Source: Leucosporidium creatinivorum
Lineage: Eukaryota > Basidiomycota > Microbotryomycetes > Leucosporidiales > Leucosporidiaceae
NCBI GenBank assembly: GCA_001600635.1
Contig: BCKL01000019.1
Span: forward strand, 502,990-566,989
DNA length: 64,000 nucleotides
Direction: 5' to 3'
Shown here: positions 1,599 through 61,868 of the stretch, piece by piece
How the letters are laid out: each line of letters opens with the position of its first letter
Position numbering within the stretch: the stretch's first letter is position 1
The notes under the pieces: model-generated
Seen by the model: the letters and a program-made list of their open reading frames with translations, nothing else
Database searches by the model: none
What the model was told of the DNA's origin: nothing
Made by a program: the position numbers and the translations under genes

Positions 1599-2086
1599 CT
1601 GAATGAGTGCGGTACAAGAGGCTTCGAACGAAAAATGGGAAGAAAAGAGGCGAAGCGAAGGATTGGAGATTTGAGGGGGAACCGCGGAGCGGTGCAGTAT
1701 ACGGACGTGGGTTCTGCACAGCCCAAGCCGAGCAATCCGAGCAAACCGAGACGAACAGCGAGCAGAAAGCCATCAGAAGCAGAGAGAGGACCGAGCTGAG
1801 CGGGAGAAAGCAGAAGGCCGAATCGAGCGAGCTCATCTCTCTGGCTCCTCCCACTTCTCGCTCGGCTTCTCGACTCTTCGCTCGGCGCTGGTTCGCTACA
1901 GGATCCAGCTCAGCTTCGACTACAGCTCTTGATCGGCCTACATCCGCACCTATCGCTCATCAAGCGACATCGCGCAGGACGCTTCATCTCTCACTCTCGT
2001 CTTGCAGCGAGTAAGGGCTAGGCGCGCCAGTAGGAGCAGGTAGAACCGAGGAGTCAATATCACGTTACGACTGGTCTGTCTGCGGA

Positions 2087-3074: not shown

Positions 3075-3421
3075 GCTGAGCTAGGAGTGGAGGGCGCGCT
3101 GGTCGTGCTAGAACTCCTCGAGGCGTTGCGCTGTACATTCACTCCTTCAGCTTTTCACCTTCCACCAGTCACGTACATAGCGAGCGGAGAGCTTGCGAGA
3201 GCTTGGAGTCGCTTGCTCTCTCGCCTCCGAACCTCGTTCGAGTCGCAAATCCTACAACACTTGATTCCTCTCATGTCCTGATTGCGCTACAAGAAAGATT
3301 AATGCGCCGGCTCCACCACCACCCCCGTATCGAAGCTCATCATCTCGTCCATCAGCGCCGAATCGTCAATCTCGGCAAACGCTCGGTCGAATCCATCGTC
3401 GTCGCCATCGACGTCCATTCC

Positions 3422-9309: not shown

Positions 9310-12300
9310 TCAACGCATAGTACAGCACGACCAGCGCGCCGTCCACTCCCAGCTCAGCTCACTCCGCCTCCCTCGGCGCACCCCTCAACAGCACCCCATC
9401 CTTCTCCAGTTCCTCACTCCCATACTGTGGCGCAGGAACAGCTCTCCCAATAGACTCTCTATCCCTCACGGTCCTTCCTCTGGCACGCTCCCTCTCCCTC
9501 GCAGCTTCGGCGATGACGGCGCTCTGAGCTTCGGTCATTGCGCGAGACACGGCCGGAGGAGGAGGGTGGATCTTGCTCGGCGGGAGGAGGAGGAATGCCT
9601 CGATCGCTTTGACGAGGTAGGAGGTCGGGGTGTAGGGTCGATAGACGGCCTTGGGCGGAGGAGACTGCAAGAGCGGGCGGGGAGTGAAAGGAGGGGGAGC
9701 GCCGACCTCTCCTTCCTCGTCCTCGGGCTGGGAGAGAGCGGGCTTGATATTCTGGCGGCGGAAGTGGAGGTAGGTAGCTCGGAGGCGAAGGTACAAGGCG
9801 AACAAGCGAAGGTGAGGAGCGTCGAGATGGCGACGATGATCAGTCCGCCGGCGGAGGGGTCGGGAGAGTTGCCTTCTCGCGGATCGGAAGGGAGCGAAAG
9901 AGGTGCAGGAGGAGTGGTTTGAGGTGGGTGAGGGAAAAGGAGGATGGCGGCGACGATGAGGGCGACGAGGACGAAGGAAGTGACGCCGAGCAGGAGAATT
10001 TGAATGCCGTTTGGGGTGAGGGAGAAGCGGGAAGATTGGGGCTCCCTGTTGGGCGCTGTGGGATGCAATGAGAGCGCTCTAGTCAGCTCAGCAGCTCACG
10101 ATCGTCCCTCATCTTTCCTTCCCTCGTCAAATCGCCGAGCTGGCGCACTCACTGCTCTTTCCCTGCTCAGCTCCATCGGCTCCAGGCTTGCGAGTGGCTC
10201 CATCCCCATGTATTGAGTCGCTCAAGCCGAGCTCGCCCGCCTTGTGTGGGGTAGGGCGGTCCTGCTGCTCCTCTGCCTGGAGCGCGCGAGAGCCTGCCTC
10301 GTCTTCCCGCTCGTTCTGCGGCTGTGTAGCCTCCATCACCATTCCGATGACAGACCAGTCGCGACGTGATATTGTCTCCTCGGTTCTACCTGCTCTTCCT
10401 GGCGCGCCTAGCCCTTACTCGCTGCAAGCCGAGAGTGAAAGATGAAGCGTCCTGCGCGATGTCGCCTGCTGAGCGAGTGGGGCGTGCTGTAGGTCGATAA
10501 AAAGCTGTAGTTGAAGCTGAGCTGGATCCTGCAGCGTACCAGCGCCGAGCGAATAGTCGAGAAGCCGAGGGAGAAGTGGAAGGAGGCAGAGAGATGAGCT
10601 CGCTCGATTCGGCCTTCTCCTTTCTCCCGCTCAGCTCGGTCCTCTCTCTCTGCTTCTGATGGCCACTTTTTTCTGCTCGCTGCTCGCTGTTCTTACATCT
10701 CGGCTCGCTCAACTTGAGCTGTGCAGGACCCACGTCCGTATACTGCACCGCTCCGCGGTTCCCCCTCAAATCTGCAATCCTTCGCTTCGCCTCTTTTCCT
10801 TCTCGTCTTTTCGCTCGAAGCCTCTCGCCGACTTTCCTTCGATGGAGGACGCCTTTCTCGTACCAACGCCTTGCGACATCGCGTGGTCCAAGATTACCAT
10901 CGACTCGGTCCTCCCTCCTCTCCACGCCGACGCCCCGGCCGAAGTTTGGGCCGAAGCATTCTCCGTTCGAAGACGGATCTGCGCCTTGCTGAAGCAGGAC
11001 GATTTTCCAGCTCCTATGAAGTACACGGGTACCGACGCTCTCAAGCAGGATATGCTAAGGGTCGTGGAAAGTGTGCTGGCGCAGCGGAAGGGGCAGGAGG
11101 CGGTGCTGAACGCGGACGGGCGCCCTAGCGGAACCGACACCCGTAAACAGTGCTTGCGCACGCTTACGGGAGAAGCAACTCCGCGCAGGCGATTCTGCCT
11201 GGTAAGTTGAGTGGTTGGAGTGTGACCGAGCGATGGGGACGGGTCGAGAGCTGGCAGTGAGCGGCTTACCGATTCCTGCGCGTAGCTCATGGACCGTACA
11301 GATATCAACGAGATGTTTGAGCACTATATCACTCTTGTTGAGTCTGACATGGTGAGCCGCCTTTATCTGCAGTCAACGGAAGGGCGTTTCGTTGCGGAGC
11401 TCAACGCCGAGCAACCGTCACCTTCTTCCACACCCTTCATGCTGACCTTCTCCTATCCCATCTACTCTGATGCACACAGGTGAATGCTGCTCGGAACCCC
11501 GAAGAAGCGGACCAGACCGTCTACCTCTGCGCGCGAAATTGGGTGCACCTGGATCCTCTTCGCCGCGCTGTTGGCNGGTTGGCTGCCATAGAATACTCTC
11601 AGGTGCGGCTGAGTGCTCTCCTGCTTCCGAGTTTGACTAACGTGTCTTGGTAACTTGCAGCAACTGCATGGCCGTTCAGCCTCTGCCCTTTTGCTTGCAA
11701 GGGAGCCGGTAAGTGCTTTTGAGTGGTTTGGAGCTGCTGCTGTTGATGATACTGACTTGCCATATGCAACACTACTACAGAGTCCTCTCCACACGGCCCG
11801 GGCTGACCGTCACGCCGACTCGGTCCTCCCTCCTCTCCACTCCGAGTCCTCGGCGGAGGAATGGGAAGCAGCCTTTGCAACCCGAGAGTTGCTCTGCAAC
11901 CTCTTACTCTCATCACCTCTTCCCCTGCTGATGGAGTGGGGAGGGAGTCGACAGAGTGCGGTGCACATGAGCAAACTCGCCAAACACGCGTTGCTGCTGT
12001 CGCTGGATCAAAAAGCTCGGCTCGTTNCAGGACTACCCTCTGACGTGGAAACAGCTCTAGAGTATCTGCAGACGTTTGTGTTTCGGGGTGATACACACCC
12101 CCTGCGACCTTTCTGCTCTGTAAGTAGCCTTCAATTGACGGGAGGGCGGCGGACCTAACACCGAAAAACGTCTCCTCGCAGCTCATGTTGAATCAAGACG
12201 TGGACAAGATGCTTCACAGCTATGTGATTACTATGGCCAAGAAGATGGTGCGTCCCTACTCTCTTTCTCCCAAGCGGTCGGACGCCATAGCCCCGTGGTC

Positions 12301-12439
12301 GAGTCTTTGGCTCGCTTCTGAGTTGCTCGCTCGGTTGACTGACTGCTCCCCCGAGTCCACCTCTTTCCTTCATGCTCTGTTTCATCAATCAAGAGCCACG
12401 TTCCCCCTGCCATATCCCTCCCCGACCTCAAGACATACG
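9310..12439. repeat. Right arm of the 3.1-kb inverted repeat
   Basis: Reverse complement of 1-3125 as described for the left arm. The outer 1.3 kb (about 11140-12439) appears identical to the left arm; the inner part (9310-11140) carries substitutions and small indels. LRARWA gene A2 starts in the arm and runs past its end at 12440, showing that the true left arm must extend beyond the window start. Confidence 0.93.
9359..10342 (-). pseudogene. Two-TM membrane protein, frameshifted right-arm copy
   Basis: Paralogue of the gene at 2087-3074 with the same two-exon layout. It starts at ATG 10342 (MVMEATQPQNE), followed by an intron and APNREPQSSRFSLTPNG with the first hydrophobic segment. Within the second hydrophobic segment, near 9800, one base is missing relative to the left copy (GCTTGTTC against GCTTCGTTC). 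The remaining frame (LRLRATYLHFRRQNIK to RGAPREAE) continues in another phase down to 9359. The rest of the copy is well preserved, so inactivation is recent or is a sequencing error. If real, only the left copy makes the full protein. Confidence 0.7.
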
Positions 12440-12640
12440 TCTGCGCTCGTGACTGGAAGACCCTCGATCCTCTTCGCCGAGCCGCTGGCGTGCTGTCTGC
12501 TGTAGCTTACTACAAGGTAGCTAGGCCATCCACTCATTGTGCTCTATGAAGCGCGCTGACTCGTCTTCGCACCCTTCATCATCATGCAGCGCGTGGAAAC
12601 CGTCGCTGCTGCTCAGCGCCGAGCTCGCCTCGCCGGATAG
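10842..12640 (+). CDS. LRARWA-family gene, right copy A2 with two fused repeat domains
   Basis: Exons seen: 10842-11201, 11286-11351, 11480-11602, 11661-11708, 11781-12119, 12182-12247, 12394-12516 and from 12590. Exons 1-4 form one family unit: DSVLPPLHADAPAEVWAEAF, LMDRTDINEMFEHYI, and a VYLCARNWVHLDPLRRA block containing an N at 11576. Exons 5-8 form a second: DSVLPPLHSESSAEEWEAAF, LMLNQDVDKMLHSYVI, VCARDWKTLDPLRRAAGVL. The first unit lacks its own C-terminal exon and splices in phase 0 into the second. The frame ends at TAG 12638-12640, short of the family C-terminus, which is still recognisable downstream. Function is unknown. The gene is either shortened or beginning to decay. Confidence 0.6.
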
Positions 12641-12732
12641 CCAGCAGCTTCAGCTTCAGCTTCCACACTGGTGCGCTCTTGTCAGTTGATAGCCCACATG
12701 GAACGCCTCTGATCTCTATCCCTCGCCTACAG

Positions 12733-12828
12733 CACAGCCTCGACCACAAGCACATCCCCTCCCTCTCGGCTCGTCAGGCTCGGTTTGAAGGGGTCTCGGA
12801 GCAGGAGTTGAGGGCGAGGTGGGCTTGA
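12733..12828 (+). other. Last exon of LRARWA gene A2, beyond the in-frame stop
   Basis: After an acceptor CTACAG at 12732 an open stretch reads HSLDHKHIPSLSARQARFEG and ends ELRARWA with TGA at 12826-12828. It matches the terminal exons of genes B, C, D and E closely and is in the same frame as the exon upstream. It belongs to the gene, but the TAG at 12638 separates it from the start. Confidence 0.65.
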
Positions 12829-21813: not shown

Positions 21814-24800
21814 TCACCGAGTGAACAGCGAGAGGGCGAGCGCTTGTATCTGCTGCCAGAGGGTGGAGGCGGAGGGTACCTCGACCGTCTGAAGGAGGTT
21901 GAAGCCTGGGTTGTCGGAGGCTGTGAGAGACGAAGCGGTCAGCGATGAGGCGAGCAACGAGGGAGCAAGGAGCGAAGCTCACTATCGCGACCGTCGGGCG
22001 CCCAGGCGAATCCTCCCATGAGGACGAGGTATGAGAGGCAGAGAATCGTACCGCGGTAGTAGTCTGTGGTTGATGTTACGGAGTCAGCTCGAGTCTCGCT
22101 CGACGACGGGACCTCGGCGTGGCTCGAGAGGAGGGAGAGGAACGTACTGGCTCGAGCCTCAATGTAGGTGTAGGTGAGGAGGAAGACGGAGAACATGATG
22201 ACGATGACGTCCCAGCGTGGGAAGACGAGGCTGTTTTGTGCGAGAGCTGGCGGGTTAGCGAGGCGCGAAGGAAGATGGAGAGCTCGACTCACGTGAACGA
22301 GTGGTGCAGAAGGGACTCCTTGCCGATGGCGTAGAAGGCTGAGAAGGCGAGCATGGCAGGTGCTTGGATTAAGCAGACCTGAAGAGCGTATGCCGAGCCG
22401 ATCTCCATACTGTTGCGCAGAGGAAGGAGGTCAGCGCCGAGACGGGAGTGGGCGGCGGGCTGGAGAGGTCGCAGCGTACCTCAGAGCAATGTTTCCATTG
22501 ATGGCGAAGGAGATGGCGTTCACTGTGGTGTAGGAGAGAATGAGGCGAAGAGGATGAGCGGCAGAGAAAGACAGATGGAGAGAATGGGAGAAGAAGAGAA
22601 GCTCGTCAGCGAACGAACGCCTACGTGTCTCCAAGCAGCTGAAACACGTACTGAACTCGGTAGTGTTGGGAACGAGAGCGAACAAGGTCACTCCCAAGAA
22701 CTTCTCGGGGATGCCAGAGCCGTCGAGGACGACATCGACGACGTCTACCAGGATCTCTGCGAAGCGGCGAAGAGGGTCAGCTCGCTCCTTCAATCACCTG
22801 TCGAGCTATGGGCGAGAGAACTCACCAGCGATGATAGCGTACAAGACGGTGCAGCCCATCAGCACGCTCGCACTCTTGGCTCGGCTCCAGTTCGGCGCAT
22901 CGTGCCCGCCGTGCCCTTCCTCGCCTCCCGCTCCCTCGTGCTCCGTCTTGTTCGACACCTCCCGGACATGCGAAGGTTGACGGTGTAAAGCAGGCGGCGC
23001 AGCAGGCTTGGAATGCGAAGGAGGGTGAGAAGACGGAGCCGAACGCATAGCACTCGCCGTCGCCGCTACCACTTCGAACGCCCTCGAGAGGTCCTCGGCC
23101 GTCATCCCATGCGGAAGCTCCATGGCGGGAGGGAGGTCGACCTTGGAGTGAGGTCGAGGGGCGAGGATGGGCGTAGTGCTGGTGGGCGTGCGAGCGCCGG
23201 TCGAGGAGCCATGGCGCTGCTTGGGGAGGAGTTGGGCAGGCAGAACGCGCTTGTACATGGAGGTGCGGTCGGCGGGATTGGCGGCGGTAGTGGGGCGAGG
23301 AAGGCCTTCTTCGACCGGCTTGGGGTGTTGAGCGTTCTGCCAAATCTGCGAGGCGTGGGTGCGGAGCGAAAACCAAAGGCCGATGAGGTACGACTGTGGT
23401 AGACGAATTCAGCGGAAGTTCTGAGCAGAGATCGAAGGGAAGCGCTGGTCGAACATACGAGGACGAGGAGGATGGCGCAGTAGTAGGCGAGCGGCTTGAC
23501 CGTCTGCTTGTAGAAGGGATCGTCGGCGGGGTCGACGTGCTCGTAGTAGCAGGTGCTGCACGACTCGGTCCCGCGAGGCGAAGTAGTGTCGCATCCGCTG
23601 CAGGTGAGCTGGAACTGGAAGGCGCAGGCGAGGAGTCAGCTTCGGCGCCGAGTTCGACGGCGAGAGGGACCGACTCACGCTGCCGTAGATCTCGTAGAAC
23701 ATGGTAGGAGTGAGGATGCCGATGATAGCCATGATCAACATGGTACTCGTGACTCCAGCGCTCCTCGCATTGAACTTTTGCTCCTTCCTCCGCATCGCTC
23801 CTCCAATCATCGACGCGCCGGGCATGAGGAGGACTCCAGCGAGGATGGATCCGACGATGGATCCTTCGACAAGGTTGGCCTTGCCTTGAGTAAGGGCGAT
23901 GCTGTAGAGGATGATCTCGATGATGGATCCGAACGAGGCGTTGATGACGGCTCCCATCCCGATGGACGATTGCGCCGAAATGGAAGCCACAGCCATACCG
24001 ATAAAGTACGAGAGGGGGATAACCGAGAGGAGGGCGGCGACGAAGAGGAAGCCTTGTCCCGAGACAAAGGCGAGGACTCCTCCCAGGTGGTGGTGCTCAA
24101 CGTAGGGTTCGAGGAGGAAGAAGTCGGCGATGACGAAGCCGACGAGGCTCATCAGGTTGATGAAAAGGATGTTGACTCCGTCGATGGTGTACTTGTAGTA
24201 CTGGAGGCCGGCCGCTCGGTAGGTGCAGAGGAGGACGGTCGAGTGAGGGCCGGTGAGTCGACCATGTCGGCGAGCCGAGTCGACTTGCTTGGGCGAGACG
24301 CGAGGAGCTGGTTGACCTGGGCGAAGAGGATACTGTACGCCGTCCATGGGAGCGGTGGGCTCGTCGAGGCTGTGATCGGGGGAGGTGGTCGAGTATTTGG
24401 GCGGGGAGCGGAAGTGGAGGGAGAGCGGCTCGTTGTTGAGGTGGCGGATGAGGACCCATAGGAGCTTGGCCATCGGGATGGTGAAAACCATGCCCCAGCA
24501 AAGGATGCAGACGAGGAGCATGAGCGGCGCGACTACGAGGTAGAAGCCCACCCAGTACATCACTCGGCCGAGCGCTCGGACTCGGAAGGAATGGCGCTCG
24601 TCCTTGTGGAAGTTGTGGGGGCGCCAGCTGGGGACACGTCGAATCCCTCCTTCTCCTGGGTCGGTGCCCTCGCTAGACGACCGCGACGTCTTGTCGCCGG
24701 TGGGGGTGGAGCCGTAGCCTCCGCGAGTCGTCGAGCCGCCGAGGAGGGTGGAGCGCTCGCCTTCGGTCGGCTGAGCTCCCTGTTGGCTCCAAGCTCCGCC

Positions 24801-26905
24801 TACCGAGGGGCGAGTCGAGTTGTTGGAGGCTTTGCGACCTCGGCCGAAAGTCCTCCCGCCGTCCTCGACGTCGAGAACGCGGCTCTGGCGCCCAGGGGTG
24901 GCGTCCCCATCCTCGGTAAGGGCTCCCTCGTCGTCCTCCTCGCCCTCCACGTTCTCGTAATCGTCGCCGTCCGTCCAGCCTTCGACATACTTGCCGAAGG
25001 GCCAAAGCAGGTATCCTCCGAGCTCCCACACCACTCGACCGTACTTCTCTCCTCCGAACGGCGTGCACCAGAGGATGGCGGAGATGATGGCACAGACGAG
25101 GCAGAGCCACGAGCCGAAGAAGATGGTCCAGAGGATGTTGCCGGGGGCGAGGTGGCGAAGAGCGGTCGAAGAAGGGGTGGCGTGCAGGGCGGTCTCGGCG
25201 TTGCGAGTGATGGAGCGCGACTTTTTGTAAAGAGCGGGCTTCCAGATGGGCAGACCGAAGGGATGCTCGACGTTGATGGCCTGTTGTGGTTGAAGTGAAA
25301 GATCAGCTCGGTTCGTCGAAGTGAGCGCGAGGGGAGACCTACATCTTGACGGTCCTTGAGCGTGTACTCGACGTCTCCATCTTCGTCAATGTCCTCGTCG
25401 TCGCTGGCGTCGTCCGTATCGTTTCCTCGGTAATCGTCGAAGCCATCGTTCGACTCCTCCGCCGGCGCCTCTTCCTCTCCTGCCTCAGCAGCAGCGACCG
25501 ACGACTCGAGACGATCGTGGAAGACGTCGCCCTCCATCTCGCCGTACTCGGCACCTTGTGAGCGAGTCGAGGCGAAGCTCGTGGTTCGATCGAGAGGGCG
25601 GCCGCCGAGGCGAGGACTGGCGCCCCTGGGAGTGCCAACTCCCTCGCCTTCTGACGAGTAGTAAGTCGAGGGCGGGCGCGCGGCGTCGCCTTCGTCGCCC
25701 GTGATGGTCGAGTTGGAAGCGATGCTGTCTCTGAGGCCAGCGCGAGAAGCGGTCCTCGACTGGGAGACGGAGATATTGGCAGAGGGAGGGTGCAGAGTGG
25801 GGAAACCGAGTCCGAGAGACGATTCGGCGCGTGGGGGAAGGTAGGGAGCGGGAGGGATGGCGCCGGCGGAGAGAGGGCGTTCGGTGTCGGGCTCGTAATC
25901 GACGGCGTAGGACGTGGGTTGGTAGGAGGCACGACGAGCGGACTCGAGCTGTAAGCGAGCAGCTCGGGCGTCGAGCTCACGCTTGCGAGCCTTCTCGGCT
26001 TCCTGTTTGAGAGGAGAGAGTTCAGCACTCATATCAGCTTGGGAAGGGGAGCGATTTCCTACCTTCTTCAGCCTAGCCCTGTCCTTCATCCTCTTCCTGA
26101 CGAGCTCCTCTCCTCGATCCCTCCTTTCCACCTCATCATCCTCGTCCATTGTCGAGCCGCCCAAGAGTACCGGCGCTGGACTCATGGCTCGGTCCCTCTC
26201 GCCTCTCCTCCGCTCTCCATCCCCTTCTTCTTCATCGTCGCTGTTTCTCCTCGCCCTCGACGCACTCCTACTTTTGCTGGCGCGCCCGACGGGATTCATA
26301 CTGCCGCTTCTCCCCACCAAGGCGAGAGTTGGCTTCTTGGGCGTCGCCGAGCCCATCTTGTTCGCTCCTCCTTTGGCGTTCCCTCGACCGCCCTTGCGCT
26401 CACGCTCGGCAAAGAAGCCTTCGTACCCCAAGCCTGTATCGCTAAGATCACCGAGGTCGAGATCGTCCGACATGAGCGACTCGGTCTCGGTGAGGTCTCC
26501 GCCGGGGCCAAGCCGATAGCCTCCGCCGACAGTAGAGGACGTCGAAGCGTAGGAAGGCTGTCGATCGCCCTCGCGAGTGGTAGATGGATTGCGAAGGATG
26601 CCAGCTGGTGGTTTGGGAGATCCGAGGCCGCTGCTCGCGCTCGGGACCCGAGCGTGCTCCTTGCCTTTGGCTGTTGCGGCGTGCTGAGGGGTAGGAGTGG
26701 CAGGAGGGGCGCCTCGACCGAGAGCGGACTGGCTGGTTGGAGTAGGAGGTGCAGCGGGCGTTGGTGTCAGAGTCGGGGCCGGGGAAGCTGAGGCGGAGAC
26801 GGATGGCGCAGTTGGAGTGGGAGGAGAGTCGGGAGCTGCCTCAGTGGAGCGCGGATCATCGCTCTGACTAGTACTTGACGAGTTGGGAGAGCCGGGCGTG
26901 TCCAT
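21814..26905 (-). CDS. VNX1: VNX1-like vacuolar cation/H+ exchanger (CaCA/CAX superfamily)
   Basis: Starts at ATG 26905 (MDTPGSPNSSSTSQSDD) with a long low-complexity Ser/Pro/acidic cytosolic N-terminus. Membrane regions follow: GRVMYWVGFYLVVAPLMLLV, SLVGFVIADFFLLEPYVEHH, FVAALLSVIPLSYFIGMAVA. Next is the diagnostic exchanger helix ASFGSIIEIILYSIALTQG with VEGSIVGSILAGVLLMPGAS and AGVTSTMLIMAIIGILTPTM. The second half contains LFALVPNTTEF and NAISFAINGNIAL and ends LALSLFTR at TGA 21814-21816. Yeast Vnx1 is a vacuolar Na+(K+)/H+ antiporter with this layout; the ion used here is inferred. About ten introns, including one of 60 nt near 26050 that leaves the frame open. The next helix pair is joined by a Ser/His-rich loop. 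Confidence 0.85.
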
Positions 26906-30101: not shown

Positions 30102-30194
30102 TCATGCCCACCGAGCCCTCAACTCCTTCTCCGAAACCTTCGAACGCCGAGCTTGTCGCGGCGTCAGCGAAGGGATGTGATGTCCGGTACTGGA
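30102..30194 (-). pseudogene. LRARWA-family relic E (last exon only)
   Basis: Minus-strand exon after an acceptor CCACTGCAG, reading HHIPSLTPRQARRSKVSEKE and ending LRARWA with TGA at 30104-30102. A short basic stretch further upstream (RSMRKRACRAG, about 30280-30340) may be part of the penultimate exon. Nothing from the N-terminal exons is present before the start of coiled-coil gene 2 at 30355. The relic therefore appears cut off at that gene. Confidence 0.65.
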
Positions 30195-30354: not shown

Positions 30355-30774
30355 ATGGCAAGGTGAGTTGCTTTATCATAGCCCTGCTACCCGACAGAAG
30401 CTGACCCGCTTTGCAGCCTCAGCCAACTCCTGACCACGCGCAACGTCAGCCTCGGCCTCACCGTCGGTGGACTTGCCTGCAAGCTTATCGACAGTCGAAT
30501 CCAGCGCCGCGTGATCCAAGCGCACCAACAACAGCAAGAACTCAACATCCTCAAGCTGCAACAGGAGATGCACCGCCTCATTCTGCAAGGCCGGCAGGAG
30601 ATGGAGCGCTGGCAGCTCGAGAATAAGCAGAAGTTTGAGCGCCGACTACTTTGGACTGAGATGGGAATGAAGGAAATGAATGAGCGCGTGCTAAGGCTCG
30701 AGGTGACTAAGATAATGGTGCAGACGGAGGTCGACGCCCGGGAGCAGGGAAGCGATGGCGAGACGGCGGGTTGA
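30355..30774 (+). CDS. Small hendecad coiled-coil protein, MASLSQLL family copy 2
   Basis: Same structure as the gene at 21009-21435: ATG 30355 reads MA plus two bases of the third codon, an intron (donor GTGAGT, branch GCTGAC, acceptor TTTGCAG), then LSQLLTTRNVSLGLTVGGLA. The 11-residue repeats are degenerate here: LQQEMHRLILQ, GRQEMERWQLE, NKQKFERRLLW. About 121 residues, ending GSDGETAG at TGA 30772-30774. As in copy 1, a GTGAGC donor-like site lies directly after the stop, followed by a CTGAT and a conserved CTGCAGAGCAATA. The N-terminal dozen residues are better conserved than the coil. Function unknown. Confidence 0.72.
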
Positions 30775-35879: not shown

Positions 35880-35923
35880 GCCGAGCGAGAGTGAGGTTGC
35901 TCTTGGCGAGGAGTTGGCTGAGG
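35880..35923 (-). pseudogene. Relic of the MASLSQLL coiled-coil family
   Basis: The minus strand reads acceptor TGTACAG followed by LSQLLAKSNLTL, matching the start of exon 2 of both coiled-coil genes. Homology ends after about 12 codons, and no hendecad region or first exon was found. It lies about 155 bases upstream of LRARWA gene B on the opposite strand. Confidence 0.6.
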
Positions 35924-36078
35924 CTGTACATGGGCTCTCCCTAACGGCTCTCTGTTCTTCTGCGCGTTTCACCGTGGAACGGGATTAGCAGTGGTCGGGC
36001 TATTCTTGAGGGCATCGCCGAGGAGACAGACCTTTCGTCTGTTTCTTCTCTCTGGCTCTTTTTTACTTCCAATCAGCC

Positions 36079-37030
36079 ATGTCACTTGCCAACTCCCGCC
36101 TTAACTCGCACCTCTGGGACGGGCTGGACCCTAATGATGTGCTCCCTCCCTTCACCGACTCGGCTGCCTTCTACCGGAAGACGGTGCTTGACTGGTACGT
36201 TGGGAGTGAGGAGCTCTTCCAGTCGCCCCGAGGCGTCATGTCGGGGCTCAAGCACCGCCTTGCTCTGACTCTGAGCGTTCCCCATTGGACTCTCACTCAA
36301 GACACTTCCTTCGAAATTGTAAGCTCGGCGTTGACTCGGGTCGGCGGAAAGCTTGACGGCGAATTATGTGTGTTTCCTTGAACAGTTCATGGATTTGGCT
36401 AAGGAGGATCAAAATCACTATGTTATGCTTGTACGACAGGAGCAGGTGAGTCAGTGCAGCACCCTCTGCATTCGGCTCGGCATTTGTGCGCAATGCGCTG
36501 ACTCGCCGCCTTCCTCCTCCCTCTACGGCGCTCTCTTGCTGTTTTGGAGCAAGTAGGACATGAACCTTTGGATGCTGGATCCGACCGATGTCAATCAAAA
36601 AATCCTCTATGTGATGGCTCCGGTGTTCAAGGACCTTGACCAGGTTCGCCGAGCACGGGTCATAATAGCGGCGAGGTATTGTCGAGGGGTGCGTTGCGGA
36701 GCGCTTGCTTTGTCAGTTTTCTGAAGTTTTCGGAAGAGAGAAAGGCTGACTCGGCCTCCCCTCTTCCCACTGCAGCAACTGACTAGAGCGCGCAATCTTG
36801 CTCGCCAAGCGCGGCGGGGCAGGGAGTGCTCGTAAGTCTCGCCGGTTGACCGTTGGAGGGCGGCCCCAGCCACAAGCTAGGTTCCTACTGAAGCAGGTTC
36901 ACCCTTTCTTCTCAACTCTTCACACCTCCACAGCATAGTTTCAAACCACCAGCACTTGCCTTGCCTCTCGACTCGGCAAGCTCGGCGTTCGAGGGTTTCC
37001 GAGCAACAGCTGAGGGCTCGGTGGGCTTGA
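36079..37030 (+). CDS. LRARWA-family gene B, intact single-domain member
   Basis: ATG 36079. Exon 1 reads SHLWDGLDPNDVLPPFTDSA and ends TSFEI. Exon 2 is FMDLAKEDQNHYVMLVRQEQ. Exon 3 is DMNLWMLDPTDVNQKILYVM, then FKDLDQVRRARVIIAARY. Exon 4 is QLTRARNLARQARRGREC. The last exon reads NHQHLPCLSTRQARRSRVSE and ends QLRARWA with TGA 37028-37030. All splice phases agree, giving about 200 residues with a basic C-terminal half. Exon order and boundaries match A, C and D. No known domain, signal peptide or membrane segment is seen. The nearest relative is broken copy D on the far side of POR1. Function unknown; the Arg-rich end could suggest nucleic-acid or nucleolar binding, which is speculation. Confidence 0.7.
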
Positions 37031-37647: not shown

Positions 37648-37661
37648 CAGCGCCGCGCCGT

Positions 37662-40150
37662 TTAGGCCTCGAACACGAGCGAAGTGCCGAACTTGTGGGC
37701 AGCTCCAGTGGCGGACTGGGCGGACTGTGTGTGTGTGGTGGTGTGTTTAGGGGTTGGGGGTTGAGCCAATTATGGTGGTGGAGGGGAAGGAGAGAGAGAA
37801 AGCGAGGGAGGTCAGCTCGGCCCTTGAAGTCCTCTCGTCCTCCTCGTGCCCCTCTCGGCGCTTCCCTCTTCCTCTCAGAGGCTCAAGAGCGCTGAGAGGA
37901 TGCAGAGGACTCCCATCGTATCGCTAGCAAGACAGAGAGACGCGAAACTCACGAGCTGAGCCGTATCAATCGCAACTCCAAAGCTAGCCTTGACTCCCGG
38001 GCGAAGGCTTTTTTTGGTGGATCAAACGGGGGGGTTCAGAGAGCAGTGATGTAGAAGCGAGGGAGAAGTCAGCAAGCAGGGAAGGGAGAGAGAAAGAGAG
38101 AGGGGACGAACGCCTGGGTGTAGCCGAGCCCGACGACTCCGACAGAGTTGACCTTGGCCTTGATGAAGGCGGTGTTCTGTGGTGTGGAGTGTATAGAGGT
38201 GCTGGTCAGCGGTCGGCTCCTCTCCTCGAGCAGCGCGGTTAGGAGGGGACGGCGGGGGAGGCGAGGGCGAGGGCGAGGGCGAGGCGGGGAAGGGAGAGAA
38301 GAGAAGGAAGGGGAAGGGGAAGGGGAAGGGGAAGGCGAGAAGTGAGGTGAAAAAAGGGTGAGAAGAAGGAAGGGAGGAGGGGGAGGGGAAGAGAGGAGGG
38401 GGAAGAATTGGAGACTCACGTCCAAGTAAACCTTGCTTCCGACCTCGACTCCGACGTTCGAGGTAGTGGACTTGGAGTCCCAGATGGCCTGTATCATATC
38501 ATATCGTATCACAGCGAGCGAGCGCAGCGGGTCAGCGTTCCTTCTCTGGCACGGACACGACCCCTCATCGCCGAAACGACAGCGCACCTTAGCACCCGCC
38601 TCGACGTCCTTGTTAACCTTGTGGTAGTAAGACGCGGAGAAGACCGAGAGGTTGGCCAATCCGTGGAGGGTGACGGTGTACGAAGGAGCGGCGTAGCCTG
38701 CGCCGAGGGCGTAGCGGGTGATGGATCCAGTGGGGACAGAGTAAGTAGACTCGGCACCGAGGAGGAAACCGTCGCGGCCGATGACCTGTGTGTTGTAGCA
38801 GAGCGAGCGAGCGTCAGCAAGCTATTTCCATCCGGTCTCTCTCTCTCTCTTTGGTCGTCCTCCCGCCCCCGCCGAGCGCTCAACGCCGAGACGAGACGCG
38901 ACGAGCAGGGAGGAGGGAAGGAGAAAGGATAGAGCGGGAGCGGGAGAGAGAGAAAAACAACGCACAGCATCAGCAGTGAAGGTAGGGCCCTTGAACACAT
39001 CGAGGAGGGCGCGCGTGTGGAGCGAAGGCTGCTTGTAGATGGCCGTGACGAAGGCCGATTTGGCCTGGGTGGCGGGGAGGAGGTGCGCCTGGACGTCGAG
39101 CTTGAGGCCTGTTATAGCATCGGGGCTTGTTAGTATTCGGTACAGAAGGAGGAGGGCGGGGGAGGGAAGGCCGCCGAGAAGGGAAGGCGAGAGAGGAAGA
39201 GCGAAACGCACCCTTTGCGATCTGGTTCTCCAACTCGACCTGAGTCTTGAGGACATTGTTGGTGGTCCAGGTCTGGGTGAAGGTGACGCCGTTCTTGGGG
39301 TCGACGTACTTGCCCTCGATATCACCGGCGATGGCGTTGGACTTGGCGTCGCGAGTGCCGGCTACTTTGAAGGCGACGTTGTTGGGAGCGCGGGTCTGGG
39401 GTAGAAAATAGAGGGTGAGTTATGGTGTAAAGAGAGAGCGTGGGAGCTGTGTAAGAGGCCAGCGGGTGCAGTACAGAGACGAGAAGAGGGAGACCGGAAG
39501 GAACCGCTGTTATGAGCGCTCCCCTCCCCTCCCCTCCCCTCCCCCCACCCAGTCGCTCGTCGCTACTGTCCCTTGCGCTTTGCAGCCTAGCGCCTAGTGA
39601 GCTAATCTGTAGTACTCCAGACCCTCCCTCCCAGCTGAAACGCCCGCCGACGAATGGACGAACTAGGACCGACCGACCGACCGACGAGCAACGAGGAAAC
39701 CCTTCGAACGGAGCGGCGGGCCCCAACTCGTCCTGTCGCCCTGCCCTCGTCGCTGCTAAGCTAGGCGCTGTAGTGCTCCCATCTAGTCGACTCTACAATC
39801 TCCTACATTCTCCCCCTACCTCCCTACCAGTCCGGCAGAGAGAGGGTCGGAAGCAATGGGCTGAGATCACGCGCTGTCTCTCTCTCCCTGCTCCTCCCCT
39901 CTGCTCCCAACGCTGTACCCTTCCAGACCAGAGAGAGAGAGAGAAGAAAGCAGAGGACTAACCTTGACCTCCAACTGGTTACCCTGGAGGGGGTAATCCT
40001 TGTTGAGCAAGTCGGCGGCAGACTTGCCGCTGTTCACACACAACGCAAGGGCGTCAGTTGGGCTGTTGCTCTGCTTCCCTACAGAGAGAGAGAGAGAGAA
40101 ACATACAGATCCTTCCACGAGGGAGGTGTAGGTTGAGAGAAGGCGGACAT
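37662..40150 (-). CDS. POR1: Mitochondrial outer-membrane porin (VDAC)
   Basis: ATG 40150 (MSAFSQPTPPSWKDL), then GKSAADLLNKDYPLQGNQLE, TRAPNNVAFKVAGTRDAKSN, TFTQTWTTNNVLKTQVELEN, GLKLDVQAHLLPATQAKSAF, VIGRDGFLLGAESTYSVPTG, LSVFSASYYHKVNKDVEAGA, AIWDSKSTTSNVGVEVGSK, NTAFIKAKVNSVGVVGLGY, LRPGVKASFGVAIDTAQL and a final exon ending KFGTSLVFEA. It forms the 19-strand beta barrel passing metabolites and ATP through the outer membrane. The N-terminal helix and the GLK-type region fit the VDAC family. About eight introns, one with an unusual GTTCGT donor. A partial duplicate lies at 42540-43521 in the opposite orientation. Confidence 0.95.
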
Positions 40151-40673
40151 GGTTGTTGTAGAGGTGTAGTGAGACTGGGTGAGGGAGGGAGGGAAGGGGC
40201 GCACGTCGTCCTTCGGCTGGGCTCAGAGGGGAGGCTCGAAATGGCAATCTTTGGACCAGGCAAGCGGGAGGGTCAAAAGAGGGCTATCTAGTGAGGTGCA
40301 GAGCAGTTGAACTGAGCAAGGGGACGATACCCGGTCAAGAGCAAACGAGGAGAGAGAGAGCTCGGCGAGCCCCTCTCCCCACCCAGCGCCGAGCAATCCA
40401 TTTGCTGGTCCTGAGGCCGCGCTGAATAGCCCTACATGAACTACACACGCCGGAGGTAGCAATCTCTAGCAACCTTACTCCCTCAAGAGCCTACTACTAA
40501 GCCCTCTGGGCGCAACCCCTCACCAATTCAATCCTCGCTTTCGGCGCCGCGCCGAGCTCCTCTTTGTGCTCGCGAGAGCAAGCAAGGTTTGAGCTCTTTA
40601 TGATAACCAGTAGTTCTCCAACTTCAAAGCAAATTCCCACCATTCCCCCCCGCTAACAATAGCTCAAGCCCAC
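40151..40673. other. POR1 upstream region
   Basis: About 520 bases with no gene. It presumably carries the POR1 promoter and the 3' end of broken copy D. No motif was identified with confidence. Confidence 0.45.
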
Positions 40674-41590
40674 CTTGCCCTCAGCTCCCGCTCCGAAACC
40701 CCCTCGTGCCGAGCTTGACGGGCCGAGATGGAAGGGATGTGCTTGTGGTTATTAGAGAGGCTGTGCTGTAGGGGGTGAAGAGACATGAGAGGACAAGAGA
40801 TGAGCTAGGTCATAGGTCATGCACAGGAGGCTGCTCGGCAATGCGGAAACAGGAAGGGGGCTCACCAGTGTGGAAGACCCGGCCGCTGAAGCAGCATTAC
40901 CATGCTTTTGATGATACTCCTACCATGGGAAAAGCGAGTCTACTGTATCAGCTCAGCAACCTTGTACAGGGAGCGAGGGAAGCATCCCCCCACCTCATAG
41001 CAACGCTTCGCAGCGATCATGATTCGTGCTCGCCGGATTGGATCAAGCACTTTGAAATCGCTGGCCCAGAGCAAACACTATCTCTTGGTTCTTGTTATCA
41101 GGTTGAAGGTCCTGTGCATGCTTCAGCTGCTTGTCGGGAGCGAGGGAGAGGAGAGATCAGCTCGGCGCCGAGCTTTGAAGATCGGAGTGAAAAGAAGAGC
41201 AGATTCAGCAGAAGCAAGCGAGGTTTCCACTACTCACCAGCGCATTCTGTACGTCGAAAATGTACTCGTACTGGCTCGTCTCTGCGTACTGCATGCACTG
41301 CAGCAGGGTATGGCAAGGGTTAGCCAGCAATTCTGATCCTCAGGCTCGCGACCGAGCTTACGATCCCAAAGTAGTTGTGGTCGGTCTCAATCCAATTGCG
41401 CTGAAATATGGCCCGATGGAGAGTATTCTGAAGGTTCGTTGATACACCTGCAGGCAGAGGAAAGATGGGGTGCTGGCCGAGGTAGAAGCCTAAGAGGTCT
41501 CTTTTGGATTGAGCAGGCGGGGTTGGTGGAGAGAGGGAGGACCTACTCCACGTCGAGGCCTTTCCAGAGTTGGATCCAGTTGACTGACAT
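40674..41590 (-). pseudogene. LRARWA-family copy D, broken
   Basis: Minus strand. Exon 1 from about 41590 (MSVNWIQLWKGLDVE, then a TAG and a phase change) continues as HPIFPLPAGVSTNLQNTLHR and ends HNYFGI. Exon 2 is CMQYAETSQYEYIFDVQNAL. Exon 3 reads NKNQEIVFALGQRF, then after a one-base shift KVLDPIRRARIMIAAKRC. Exon 4 is EYHQKHGNAASAAGSSTL. The last exon reads HSLSNNHKHIPSISARQARH and ends ELRARWA at TGA 40676-40674. Exon count and order equal gene B, to which it is most similar (LWxGLD, VLP). At least one stop and two frame changes make it a pseudogene. It faces B across POR1. Confidence 0.7.
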
Positions 41591-42539: not shown

Positions 42540-43521
42540 ATGTGAACTACCATAAGGTCAACCAGGACGTCGAGGCGGGTGCTAAGGTGCGTTGTCGTTC
42601 CTTTCGGTTTCGGCGATGAGGGTCGAGTCCGAGCAGAGAAGGAACGCTGACCCGCTGCGCTCGCTCGCTGTGATACGATATGATATGATACAGGCCATCT
42701 GGGACTCCAAGTCCACTACCTCGAACGTTGGCGTTGAGGTCGGAAGCAAGGTTTACTTGGACGTAAGTCTCTTGCCCGTTTCTGTCCCTTCCGTCCTGCC
42801 CCTTTCCCCTTCCTCCTCCTCTTCCACCTTCCCCCCTTTGTCGCTGTTCCCTCTCTTCTTCTCGTCTCGCCTCACCTCTTCTCCTTCTCCTCTTTCTGCC
42901 TCGCCCTCGCCCTCGCCCTCGCCCTCGCCCGCCGTCCCCTTCCAACCGCGCTGCTCGAGGAGCCGACCGCTGACCAGCACCTCTATACATCTCTATACAC
43001 TCCACAGAACACCGCCTTCATCAAGGCCAAGGTCAACTCTGTCGGAGTTGTCGGGCTCGGCTATACCCAGGCGTTCGTTGCCCTCTTTCCCTCCCTCTCT
43101 TTCTCTCTCCCTTCCCTGCTGGCTGACTTCTTCTTCTCTTCTACATCACTGCTCTCTGAACACCCCCCGTTTGATCCACCAAAAAAAGCCTTCGCGCGGG
43201 AGTCAAGGCTAGCTTTTCAGTCACGATTGATACGGCTCAGCTCGTGAGTTTTCGCAGTCTTTCTTCCGCGCTATAATTCCATCCGGGGCTGTTTGATGTT
43301 GTCTGTGTGCTCTTGAGCCGCGAGGACCGCGGAAGCGCGCACGAGGAGGAGGAGGAGGAGGAGAAAGTGGACGGAGCGCCGGACTCACCTCTCTCTCTCT
43401 CTCGCCTGTCCCTCCTCTACAAAACATTCAACGCTGATTCCGATGCACAGCAACGCAGTCCGTCCAGTCGGACACCGGAGCCGCCTCCAAGCTCGGCACT
43501 GCGCTCAACTTCGAGGCTTAA
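42540..43521 (+). pseudogene. 5'-truncated POR1 duplicate, C-terminal half
   Basis: Exons with POR1-like introns between them: VNYHKVNQDVEAGAK (about 42540-42586), AIWDSKSTTSNVGVEVGSK, NTAFIKAKVNSVGVVGLGY, LRAGVKASFSVTIDTAQL, and a last exon SVQSDTGAASKLGTALNFEA with TAA 43519-43521. The introns are homologous too, including the rare GTTCGT donor and the A-rich acceptor, so this is a DNA-level duplication and not a retrocopy. The N-terminal two thirds of the barrel are missing and no start is seen. All retained exons are open. The last exon differs from POR1 mostly by conservative changes. Confidence 0.8.
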
Positions 43522-44056
43522 AGAACCTCGGCGCTGGGCTCCGAGTCGGATTTCCTCGCACTTCAGTCCAGTCGAGTTCCCACACTTCTGCGTGTAACAT
43601 CAGGAAGAAGTCAAAAACACGCTCGATGTGATGTGAGCAGCGCGGCTGTACTGTAGTCAAGCAGAGCGGGCGAGAGAAACGAGAACGAGTCCTGCGAGCA
43701 TCTGGGCGAGACTCTATGGTCTGAGTGCTCTCTTACAGCGTCTGCTCACCTTCGAAGCACTAGAGACTCTTTGATTTGCTCTGCAGCTTTATAAACGACC
43801 AAGGTGCAACTCGAGCGCAAGCTCGGCGAGAGCCGCTCGAGAGGAAGGGATCGCCGAACTCTTCTCCGTGCTGTCCTCCAGCTCCACTTAAATGGAGTTA
43901 TGACGGCTTCAACCTCGCTGCAGCACCACTACTCGGCAACAGCGAAACCCCTCTCTCCCCACTTCGAAACGCGTCGCTGACTCACCTCTGCTTTCTCTCT
44001 CCCGCTTCGTCGCTCTTCTCGCTCATCACCTCCGACACGTCTACAGAGCTCCCTTA
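43522..44056. other. Intergenic upstream of the double GNAT gene
   Basis: No gene recognised. It presumably contains the promoter of the acetyltransferase gene. Confidence 0.4.
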
Positions 44057-46157: not shown

Positions 46158-49100
46158 ATGGCCACCTCAGCACAAGCCGCACACAACGTCGTCTCCTCCC
46201 AAACCGCTTCGGCCCTCTCCCAATCCTCTTCGCTCGAGGAAAAAGCAGCAGCCGGTGATGCTGAGAAGGGGAACCACCCTGTACACGAGGATCTGAATGG
46301 ACATAATCAAGGAGTTTCCAGGATTGAGGCGCTTTGTGAGTCCGAGTAGAGGCGAGAAAAGGTGAGCCGGACCGAGCCGAGCTGATTGTTTCTCGCATCG
46401 CAACACGCGCAGACGTCGTCTTTGGCAAAGGATGGAAGATTTGGGGACTGTACCTCTCCATGTTTGTTGCTCTCTGCTTATCGACACCCTCCCTAGCTGA
46501 CCTTTGTCCCTCCCCCGATAGCGCCTTAATCGCCTACGTCTCCTCCCTCGCGTCTAACACCCTCTACGTCTACCTGCCTTTCGCTACTTCCTCCTTCGGA
46601 GAGCACTCGACCTTGGGCACAATCACCGTCGTTACCAGCATCATCGCCAGCGTGTGCAAGCCCTTCCTCGCCAAGATTGCCGATTTTACGAGCAGGCCAC
46701 ATGCTTATCTCTACTCGTTGGTCGCCTGTGAGTTCTGACGGGTTGCGCTACGACTCAGCAAGTCGAGCTAACTTGCTGCACCCTCGATAGACGTCCTCGG
46801 TCTTGTCATCCTCGCCTCGTCGACCTCGGTCAACGCCGTCGCCGCTGGACAAGTCTTCTACACTATCGGCAACACGGGCTTTGATCTTGTCCTCACGATT
46901 ATTCTAGGAGACATTACCTCGCTGGAAGTGAGTGATGCCTCTAGACGTGGTAGATGAGAGTCGGGGCTCGGCGCTGACTCTTCCTTTCGCTTTCACTTCC
47001 GTACCCTTCACAGTGGCGCGGAATGAGTCAAGCCATCGTCGCCTCGCCCTACACCGTCAATGCTTTCATCGCAGGCTACATCTCCAGTGCCATCTCCCTC
47101 GAAGGCTGGTCCGTCGCGCTTCTGATTGCCCTCGTCGACGCCGAGCTGACTTGCTCTTGCCTCTCCCTTCCTCCCTTCTCTGTTGTACAGGCGATGGGGC
47201 TACGGGATGTTCGCCATCATCCTGCCAATCTGCACAAGTCCCGCGCTGTACATTCTGTTCTGGGCGGATATGAAGGCGCAGAAACTCGGCGTGAGTTTTG
47301 ACTCGGAATGGGGCGAAATGAGGGGTGGACGAGCTGGAGAGGGCGTCTAGCCGCTCTGCAGCTTCTCACTGCACCTGTTTGGTGTGCACGAAGCTGACAA
47401 GACCTTCGGACACCTCCCCACAGGCCGTCTCTATCGCCTCACCCGCCTACGCTCTCAACGAGGCGGTCAAGCAGCAGGAGAGGAAGAGCTGGTCGGCTCG
47501 CATGCTCGAGACTCTTGTTATAATTGATGGTGAGTTTCTGTTCGTCTGCAGCTGGCTCCCCTCATCCGAAACGTCGACGCGCCCCGCGACCACCTGCACC
47601 GATCGAGGCGCTCTTCAAACTCGACCGAGTTGCTGATCCCCTCACTCTATCCTGCAGCTCTCGGACTCGTCCTCCTTGGCTTCTCTTGGTCCCTCATCCT
47701 CCTCCCTTTCACCCTCTCAGCGAGTGCCAACGGCGGGTGGAAGAACGGTGAGTGGTCGCTGAGCCCGTCTTCCTCCCGGCCAAGCTGACTCCGTTGCAAC
47801 CCCAACAGCCTCCATGCTCGCCATGGAGATCATCGGCATTGTACTCCTCATCACTTTCACCCTCGTAAGCCTCTCCGTGTCTTCTCGCAGCCCCAACTGG
47901 GCGTCGAAAGCTGACCTCCTCCGTCTCGCCTCGCTAACAGTACGAGTTCTACTGGGCCAAGTACCCGCTCATGCCCAAGCGCGTGATGAACCGCACCTTC
48001 CTTTGCTGCATTGCTATCGACTTCCTCTACTACCTCTCCGTAAGCTCAACTCAGCTTTCTTTTTTTGAGGCTCGGCAAGGAGAGCAGCTGATTCTGAGTC
48101 GGTTTATCGTTGTAGGGTTACATTCAAAGTACCTACTACTCCTCTTACGTGTTCGTTGTACGTACAGCTCTCGCTACAGGTCGTCGGGAGCTCTGGGGGA
48201 GGGCTGGGAGGCCGGGAAAGCTGCTCGGCGTCGGCGGCCTGAAAGCTCTATCCTGAGCTTCACAGTGGGCTTGAGGGTCTGATGCTTCGGCTACAGCATC
48301 ACCATGGCCACTGGTATCTGTGGTGGCTGTACCAAGGGCCCCAGACTCCACCAGCGCCGTTCAGATCATCAATTCTTCCCGCTCGGTCGTCTCAGAGGCT
48401 AAACCCTTCCCTGCCCCCTAACAGATCCGCGACTGGTCCACTCGTGATTATACCTTCTTTCTCAACACGCTCGGCGTCGGACTCTGCTTCTTCTCCCTCA
48501 TCGCCGGCGCTCTCCAGCGCTTCTTCCACAACTACAAGTGGGTCCAGCTCGCCGGAATCTGCATGAGGGCCATCGGGATGGGTCTCGTCTTCTTCGCCAC
48601 GGGCGATAAGGCTACAGACGTCAATCTCGTGATGGCGCAGGTCATGATCTCGCTTGGAGTGAGTTGCCCGAGCCGTCTTTTGCCTTCGCCGAGCGAGTTG
48701 AGCTGACTCGGAATGGCTGCACAGGGATCCTTCTCGGTCATTGGATCGCAAGTCGCTTCCCAGGCCTCTGTACCCCACGCCGACATGGCCACCGCCATCT
48801 CCCTCCTGTCCCTCTGGACCGGAGTTGGAGGATCCATCGGCTCGGCCATCTCGGCCGCCGTGTGAGCTAACCTCGGCTCGACCCCCTCACTGAACGAGCG
48901 CTGACCTTCACCGCTTCGCCAGCTGGACCAACAAGATGCCCGGAAACCTCGAGAACAGGCTCCAGGACCTACTCCCCGCCGGGAACATCACCGCCATTTA
49001 CGGCTCGCTCACCGACGCTCGCTTTTCGAGCCCCGAGGTTCGCGCTGCGGTCATTGAGGGTGAGTGGCCGCCTACTAATCTTGCTGCTGAGCCCAAGCTG

Positions 49101-50749: not shown

Positions 50750-51175
50750 TTTCATCGCCGCCCTCGTGAGACTCTCCTCCCAGCTCCGACTCGGTGCCGA
50801 AAGCTGACCTCCTCCGTCTCGCCTCGCCAACAGTACGAGTTCTACTGGGCCGAGTTCCCCCTCATGTCCAAGCGCGTGATGAACCGCACCTTCCTTTGCT
50901 GCATTGCTATCGACTTCCTCTACTACCTCTCCGTAAGCTCAACTCAGCTTTCTTTTTTTGAGGCTCGGCGAGGAGAGCAGCTGATTCTGAGTCGGTTTAT
51001 CGTTGTAGGGTTACATTCAAAGTACCTACTACCCGCCTGCGCGTTCGTAGTACGTACAGTCCTCGCTACAGGTCATCGGGAGGTCTGGGCGAGGTCTGAG
51101 AGGCTAGGAAAGCTGCTCGGCGTCTCCGGCCTGGAAGCTCGATCCTGAGCTTCACAGTGGGTTTGAGGCCTGCTG
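50750..51175 (+). pseudogene. Duplicated internal fragment of the SIT transporter gene
   Basis: Matches about 47850-48290 of the transporter, including the intron ends. It has acceptor CCAACAG, exon YEFYWAEFPLMSKRVMNRTF through LLYYLS-type sequence, an intron, and GYIQSTYY, which then diverges. The exon is open and carries K-to-E and P-to-S changes. There is no start, no stop and no other exon, so it cannot encode a transporter. Confidence 0.8.
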
Positions 51176-51570
51176 CTTTGAATTCGGTGGGCGTACTGCT
51201 TCGAATACGGTGTCTTCACGGTTCTCGCTTTGTCGCGTAGAAGGTGGAATGCTCTGGAAGCCCTCTTCGCCGCCGACTTGCCGAGCACTCTGGACCACCA
51301 GGCCTTCTCGCTTGATTGGCTGGCTCACAGTGAGAGATTCACACCTTCCGCAAGATCCGTGTGGAAGCATTCCCTATCAGAGGGAGTGGGACACGTAGCA
51401 GGCCAATGAGCGTCGAGCGTGAACCTGCTTGGCGCCGAGCTGAGCGCCGAGCTGAGCGCCGGGCTGAGCGCCGTTCCCCTCTGCTCGCTGTCTTAACTCT
51501 CACTCCTTCAGGTGGCGGATCTATCAACAATAAGTTATCTACACTCTGCCAGCTACTCAAACTACTCGAT
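51176..51570. other. Intergenic with a short GCGCCGAGCT tandem array
   Basis: No gene. At about 51430-51475 a 13-base unit containing GAGCGCCG is repeated three to four times. Confidence 0.5.
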
Positions 51571-60773: not shown

Positions 60774-61868
60774 ATGCCGCCCCCAGCAGAACAAACCCCT
60801 TCAGACATCGCCTGGTACCACAAGACCCTCGCCGACCTCCCTCATCCGCCACTCAGCGTCGACTCGACCGCCGAGGAATGGGCGTTCGCTCTCCAAACTC
60901 GGGAACGACTGGCCCATCTCATCCTCCTCCCAACTCATGAGTCTCCCTTCACCTTTCCCGGTCCAACCGCTGCGCGTCAACAGCAAAGAGCCGAAAGAGA
61001 GCGAGAGGATCTGGCTCGGCGAGCTTTGGAGCAGGACAAGCGGCACAAGGTCAACCTAGGAGTTGAGACCGGACGGCCAGGGGGAGTCAAGGACGCTCAG
61101 TCGATGGTTAACACCTTTGTAGGAGATAAGGTCAACGGGAGGCCCTTCGTTTTTGTGAGTAGGGAGGTCGGAGGGAAAGCTCGGCGTTGCCATTCGAGCT
61201 CCCGAGCAGATGGCTGAGCTTGCTCACTTCCCACCTTGCAGCTGATGCGAGACGAAGACGTCAATGCGGCACTTGGTGACTACGTCCGAGCCACGGCGCA
61301 GAAGATGGTAGGTACTTCTCTCGGCTCCAGCAATCACTCGGATCTCGTCTCCGAAGCTTCGAGGCTGACGCTGACCCGCTCGTCACCTACAGCGTCTCGC
61401 AGCTCGAACTGACGCCGATCCAGATGGAAAGACGCTCTACATCATTGCCAGGTACTGGGACCAGTGTGATCCTCTGCAGAAGGCCGAGGGCGTGGTAGCG
61501 GCGAGTCAGTATCGCAAGGTGAGCGAGCTACAGCCTGCTGTCGGAGAGAGAGAGAGAGGGCTAGGCTGAACTTTGCTACACTACTCCAGCGCATCAGGCT
61601 CGCGCAAGCTGCTCGCCGAGCGAGGCCGCGCATCTCCTCGCCAGCGGGCTGGCGCTCAGCGTCGGCGTTCGAAGCTCACAATGCTGTTCAGGTGAGTCGA
61701 ACTGCTCACGAACTTCTGCTTGAGCTCGCTCACACGTGAACCAAAACCTTTCTTGATTCTTTGCCTCGACCCTAGAGCCTCAGCCATCAGCACCTCCCCT
61801 CGCTCTCTCCAAGGCAGGCTCGGCGCTCGCGGGTCTCGCAAGCTCAGCTTCGGGCGCGGTGGGCGTGA
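60774..61868 (+). CDS. LRARWA-family gene C, intact single-domain member
   Basis: ATG 60774 (MPPPAEQTPSDIAWYHKTL). Exon 1: ADLPHPPLSVDSTAEEWAFA, a Glu/Arg/Lys-rich middle, ending GRPFVF. Exon 2: LMRDEDVNAALGDYVRATAQ, KM. Exon 3: RTDADPDGKTLYIIARYWDQ, CDPLQKAEGVVAASQY. Exon 4: RIRLAQAARRARPRISSPAG, ending HNAVQ. Last exon: SLSHQHLPSLSPRQARRSRV, ending QLRARWA with TGA 61866-61868. All junctions are in phase; about 230 residues. Its exon 1 (DIAW, AEEW) is closer to A than to B or D. It ends 33 bases from the USB1 stop on the other strand. Function unknown. Confidence 0.72.

Follow-up and report, generated by a model that had tools for sequence, protein, structure and literature searches.

Among described systems, those closest to the genes analysed here are the lineage-specific (orphan) families that have expanded in fungi. 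Like these, the LRARWA family comprises multiple paralogs, intact as well as broken, which follow a common exon plan and give no convincing domain match in the collections searched. Orphan families in which one terminus is fixed and the rest diverges offer a clean setting in which to ask how new genes acquire and retain a function. A second point of comparison is the wtf family of meiotic drivers in Schizosaccharomyces pombe, which are likewise multi-copy and quickly changing fungal genes; the LRARWA proteins differ in having no strongly hydrophobic stretch. The third is the classical helix-turn-helix motif of the LacI type, in which residues follow an A...(G/R/K)VS...L-type spacing. The Arg-rich LRARWA tail has this spacing and is predicted, at low confidence, to form a helix, a turn and a helix. 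In contrast to the classical motif it has no profile or fold match, the chain stops directly behind the second helix, and no first helix is demonstrated.

We searched the window, i.e. the whole 64 kb stretch of DNA that was analysed, in six frames with profiles of exons 1, 2, 3 and 5, and tested each member by removing it from its own profile (leave-one-out). The results support an LRARWA family that is real, duplicated, spliced and protein-coding within the window. Its members are built on a common plan of five exons, in which the N-terminal part diverges and the C-terminal exon, of 29 residues, is nearly invariant. The introns, a porin gene and a glycerol-3-phosphate dehydrogenase-like gene point to a fungal host, which would be basidiomycete-like and is probably a red yeast. 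We put the probability that a real, constrained family exists at roughly 0.9; the odds that it is, in addition, lineage-restricted are even. The best reading of the locus is that the LRARWA proteins form an orphan family, putatively undescribed, whose members are small, basic and helical and whose C-terminus, with its helix-turn-helix-like spacing, may bind nucleic acid. Such a family is of an ordinary kind, a duplicated orphan family with an unusually fixed C-terminus, and as such it is well supported inside the window.

Gene copies and their exon plan

Gene B occupies positions 36079-37030 of the plus strand, a span that corresponds to exactly one five-exon model (36079-36318, 36386-36445, 36557-36688, 36776-36831 and 36934-37030) with GT-AG introns. 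Its frame is open over 194 codons and a stop, giving a product of 194 amino acids with a pI of 9.7, but the last intron is in phase 2, and B is the most divergent of the full-length family members. The cleanest copy is gene F, which is probably the gene C of the first-pass annotation. It lies at 60774-61868 on the plus strand (exons 60774-61154, 61242-61307, 61393-61518, 61590-61691 and 61776-61868), has all of its introns in phase 0 and encodes 255 amino acids with a pI of 10.2. Among the three full-length models it is the only one free of irregularities, those of the other two being the phase of the last intron in B and an in-frame stop in A.

Gene A, which had been described as consisting of two halves, is indeed a fused double copy, placed by gene modelling and profile matches at 10842-12828 on the plus strand. 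The first half contributes exons 1-4 (10842-11201, 11286-11351, 11480-11602 and 11661-11708), and the second half a set of exons 1-5 without its start (11781-12119, 12182-12247, 12394-12516, 12590-12670 and 12733-12828), in which the acceptor of exon 12394-12516 was set by eye. One N is present in each half. The in-frame stop is a TAG in the penultimate exon (12590-12670); judged from the sequence, skipping this exon would keep the frame.

A is mirrored at the start of the window by the partial copy A' (1-1598, minus strand), which runs from exon 1 of A into exon 3 of its second half and is cut by the window edge. In exon 1 the two copies differ at 20 of 360 bases, with a pS of 0.085 and a pN of 0.046. 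A' and part of A are contained in a 3.1 kb inverted repeat with arms at 1-3109 and 9324-12439. Positions 1-1299 match the other arm with one mismatch and one end gap, ambiguous bases included, and from 1300 to about 3083 the identity in 100-column bins is 75-98%. Single Ns recur in mirrored positions of the arms (413/12027 and 864/11576), and for the near-identical part they suggest a collapsed assembly or a contig edge. Elsewhere in the window, a direct repeat of 408 bp (91% identical) is found at 47880-48287 and 50773-51178.

Two further members had been reported as broken (D) and as a relic (E), and both descriptions hold. Copy D, at 40664-41590 on the minus strand, carries, as read by eye, a stop codon in exon 1 and a frame break in exon 3; its exon 2 lies at 41297-41238, exon 3 starts at 41126 and the last exon (40765-40664) is open. 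The copy sits between a porin gene (VDAC, Porin_3; 38114-40150, minus strand) and a partial second porin copy in the opposite orientation (42546-43522, plus strand), which matches only the last 57 residues and the 3' flank of the gene (repeat 37661-38628). Relic E is a lone last exon at 30102-30194 on the minus strand behind an AG acceptor, and the profiles of exons 1-3 gave no match near it.

A common exon order with common boundaries had been proposed for copies A to E. The order is alike between copies and the introns are mostly in phase 0, with the last intron of B in phase 2 as described above, but taken singly exon 1 of B and most copies of exon 2 do not reach significance, and E consists of a last exon only. 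For F, B and the part of A that ends with exon 3b, 14 introns were tabulated; all are of the GT-AG type and measure 58-146 bases. That intact, fused, broken and relic copies occur together would fit the description of the family as fast-duplicating; the paralogs compared, however, are mostly old, and their synonymous differences are often near saturation.

Conservation along the gene

The family profile of the last exon matches A (12739-12825), B (36941-37027) and F (61779-61865) on the plus strand and D (40667-40753) and E (30105-30191) on the minus strand. The first-pass annotation had proposed that several family members are present in the window and that their last exon ends in LRARWA-stop. 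Both statements are borne out: all five last exons end in this way, and each of them is recovered when left out of the profile, with scores of 58.4-65.0 bits. The best other match, from the reversed window, reaches 9.6 bits; the in-window background excluded matches overlapping the member regions as well as any that begin within bases 1-1800, the site of the mirror copy A'. In the alignment of the last exons 14 of 29 columns are invariant, the final six (LRARWA) among them. Over the 87 coding bases the mean pairwise DNA identity is 0.697, whereas 2000 random sets average 0.258 and reach 0.333 at most; this null ignores that the copies were picked for their likeness. Leave-one-out recovery together with the random-set identity rules out chance similarity of the last exons.

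The conservation has the signature of a protein. In the last exon pS is larger than pN in every one of the 10 pairs, which are not independent, being drawn from five copies, and which cover a short exon; the tail is therefore constrained as protein. As the first-pass annotation had expected of a real family, dN/dS is below 1, with values of 0.14-0.53 in the nine pairs with finite dS (the tenth pair, B-F, is saturated). In a frame control, all 10 pairs have the larger pS when read in the exon's own frame; the same holds for 5 of them in the +1 frame, where one pair is tied at the precision given, and for none in the +2 frame, in which the order is the opposite in all 10. In successive 30-base bins the DNA identity amounts to 0.65, 0.70 and 0.77 within the exon, and beyond the stop codon to 0.32 in the first bin and 0.21-0.30 in the next six. 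A conserved DNA element in place of a coding exon is rejected on two grounds, as identity ends at the stop codon and the excess of pS over pN is specific to the exon's own frame. The last exons of the broken copy D and the lone exon E appear as conserved as the rest, so these two copies were either recently inactivated or are not fully dead.

The same data bear on the alternative that the copies are the remains of a mobile element's gene that has survived best in its last exon. It would account for the broken and partial copies (D, E and A') that lie on both strands within 64 kb and for the further duplicated segments nearby. However, introns stand at matching places in different copies, which argues against retroposition, and Pfam yields no transposase or reverse transcriptase for either half of A (A1 and A2), B or F at E values up to 10. 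The low dN/dS of the last exon likewise speaks against this alternative, as does the end of similarity at the stop codon, with no 3' flank shared. In the range from 240 bases before to 210 bases after the stop, ungapped identity is at background level past the stop and, on its upstream side, at distances beyond 120 bases; the 5' flanks of the genes were compared between copies by self-BLAST of the window. On balance we regard an origin from a mobile element as unlikely and retain the reading as a duplicated orphan family.

Support for the other exons is uneven. In exon 3, leave-one-out profiles recover A1, A2 and F (38.1, 38.9 and 30.4 bits), and the partial exon 3 of D, which was outside the training set, is found at 28.8 bits; exon 3 of B is marginal (12.7 bits, E 0.01). 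Apart from B, exon 3 is thus well supported. In 6 of 6 pairs exon 3 has a pS larger than pN.

Exon 1 is recovered in A1 (65.7 bits), A2 (58.9 bits) and F (42.9 bits). The left-out family profile does not recover exon 1 of B, which matches exon 1 of D in two pieces (E 1.1e-05). The two motifs that had been ascribed to this exon throughout are unevenly distributed: A carries the AE(E/V)W block in each of its halves and F carries it as AEEW, but it is missing from B, and VLPP occurs in A and in B, which has the D-V-L-P-P block, but not in F, which reads PHPP there. Here too pS exceeds pN in 6 of 6 pairs, both values being high (0.63-0.74 versus 0.46-0.65).

Exon 2, with a length of 20-22 residues, is too short for proof by itself. 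It is found in the expected place with phase 0 ends in A, B and F, and A1 scores 10.4 bits when left out, above the background of that run. When left out, exon 2 of A2, B and F is not distinguishable from background, and D gives no match. In one of six pairs pS is smaller than pN. Given the high pS and pN of exon 1 and this one deviating pair in exon 2, constraint in exons 1 and 2 is weak or unproven. Over all exons, the outline of the first-pass annotation is largely correct.

Searches for a known identity

The collections searched comprise curated families and prokaryotic, viral or solved-structure sets. The absence of a known domain, as stated by the first-pass annotation, is supported in so far as no convincing match was obtained in Pfam (A1, A2, B and F), NCBIfam (A1, B and F), PHROGs (B and F) or PDB sequences (profiles of exons 1, 3 and 5), and no relatives were found among IMG/VR viral contigs (profiles of exons 5 and 3) or prokaryote genome contigs (profile of exon 5). 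For the five tails no Pfam family appears at E values up to 10, in a search where HMMER's filters remove most weak matches. Rfam at gathering score and tRNA scans of the window gave no matches.

Several weak candidates were judged to be chance matches. For A1 these are ILV_EDD_C in Pfam (E 0.063, 13.1 bits versus a cut-off of 27.7) and NF010407 TrbB in NCBIfam (E 0.00086, 18.8 bits versus a cut-off of 499), and a known domain for the LRARWA proteins was rejected, there being no convincing match in either collection. For F they are phrog_12986 (E 0.0091) and phrog_22295 (E 0.081). Among PDB sequences, the repeat protein 6xr1 reaches an E value of 3.3e-07 over the whole chain; this match adds up nine pieces of 8 residues each, and taken singly none of them reaches significance. 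Exon 3 matches nine PDB chains with E values of 0.033-0.97, mostly designed barrels, the rest being an antibody chain and lysozyme, and exon 1 matches 2h5n (E 0.78) and 7jw1 (E 0.89).

Unnamed orthogroups are common in fungal comparisons. Fungal resources may accordingly list the LRARWA genes already, for instance as a red-yeast orthogroup that carries no name, and the genes would then be an ordinary orphan family. The composition of the collections searched, with their curated, prokaryotic, viral and solved-structure entries, favours this alternative. Against it, the string LRARWA is absent from the literature searched, which says little, as papers seldom print such strings. No description of the family was found in a literature search that was too thin to claim absence from print, and the passages considered of PMC12093110 and PMC4469406 do not describe it. 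We give prior cataloguing an equal chance of being true or false; it is compatible with the best reading, a family of small, basic, helical orphan proteins, and takes away its novelty.

Protein properties and possible function

The last 66 residues of F and of B both have a pI of 12.0 and contain 15 (F) and 17 (B) lysines and arginines versus 1 (F) and 2 (B) aspartates and glutamates. The best mean hydropathy over 19 residues is 0.57 at residue 111 in F and 0.53 at residue 106 in B, and by this crude measure neither protein has a membrane-like stretch, none exceeding 0.57, or the N-terminal hydrophobic signal of a secreted effector. AlphaFold2 models the tail as two helices (residues 12-18 and 22-29) around a turn, with a mean pLDDT of 68.1, i.e. 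low confidence, and exon 1 of F as helices with no strands, also at low confidence (mean pLDDT 62.5). Foldseek returned no PDB match for the tail model. With no hit in Foldseek and none in Pfam, the helix-turn-helix idea rests on the residue spacing and a weak model.

These properties suggest the following tentative mechanism. The small, Arg-rich, helical, non-membrane protein would enter the nucleus, where its basic C-terminal tail, folded as a short helix that a turn of three residues joins to a second helix ending at the C-terminus, might bind nucleic acid. The variable N-terminal helices could bind partners that differ between copies, and birth-and-death duplication would leave broken and relic copies behind. 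Binding of nucleic acid by the C-terminus is the mechanism that we favour, though taken by itself we hold it to be rather doubtful. If the tail does bind, the LRARWA genes would amount to a regulator or defence family that arose within the lineage of a yeast-like fungus. Otherwise the family still deserves annotation, because gene finders readily overlook or mis-splice genes whose exons are this short.

Two paralogous genes for short coiled-coil proteins, at 30355-30774 (plus strand) and 21374-21015 (minus strand), are 41% identical over their tblastn match and have a tiny first exon. B and E are arranged head to head with such a gene or its relic: 161 bp separate the start of E from the ATG of the opposite-strand gene at 30355-30774, and just upstream of B, about 150 bp from its start, lies an opposite-strand relic of the same coiled-coil gene at about 35887-35932 (minus strand). 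This arrangement raises the alternative that LRARWA and coiled-coil genes together make up a divergent unit of two genes, such as a selfish pair of the toxin-antidote kind, that is spreading and decaying. However, the second full coiled-coil gene has no adjacent LRARWA exon, A, D and F have no adjacent coiled-coil copy, and the match on the side of B extends over 52 bp in DNA with an E value of 2.9 as protein. As neither the second coiled-coil gene nor the remaining LRARWA copies have such a partner, the two-gene unit is only a lead, and we rate it as very improbable. Hardly better placed is the most far-reaching proposal, an undescribed fungal DNA-binding family with a fixed, helix-turn-helix-like LRARWA tail and a fast-changing, partner-binding N-terminus, possibly spreading together with a divergent coiled-coil gene as a selfish unit, which we consider quite improbable.

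Other genes in the window include the glycerol-3-phosphate dehydrogenase-like gene, which was read by eye, and an open frame at 23412-25385 on the minus strand that combines a YccF domain (E 3.8e-16) with a sodium/calcium exchanger domain (E 1.3e-07).
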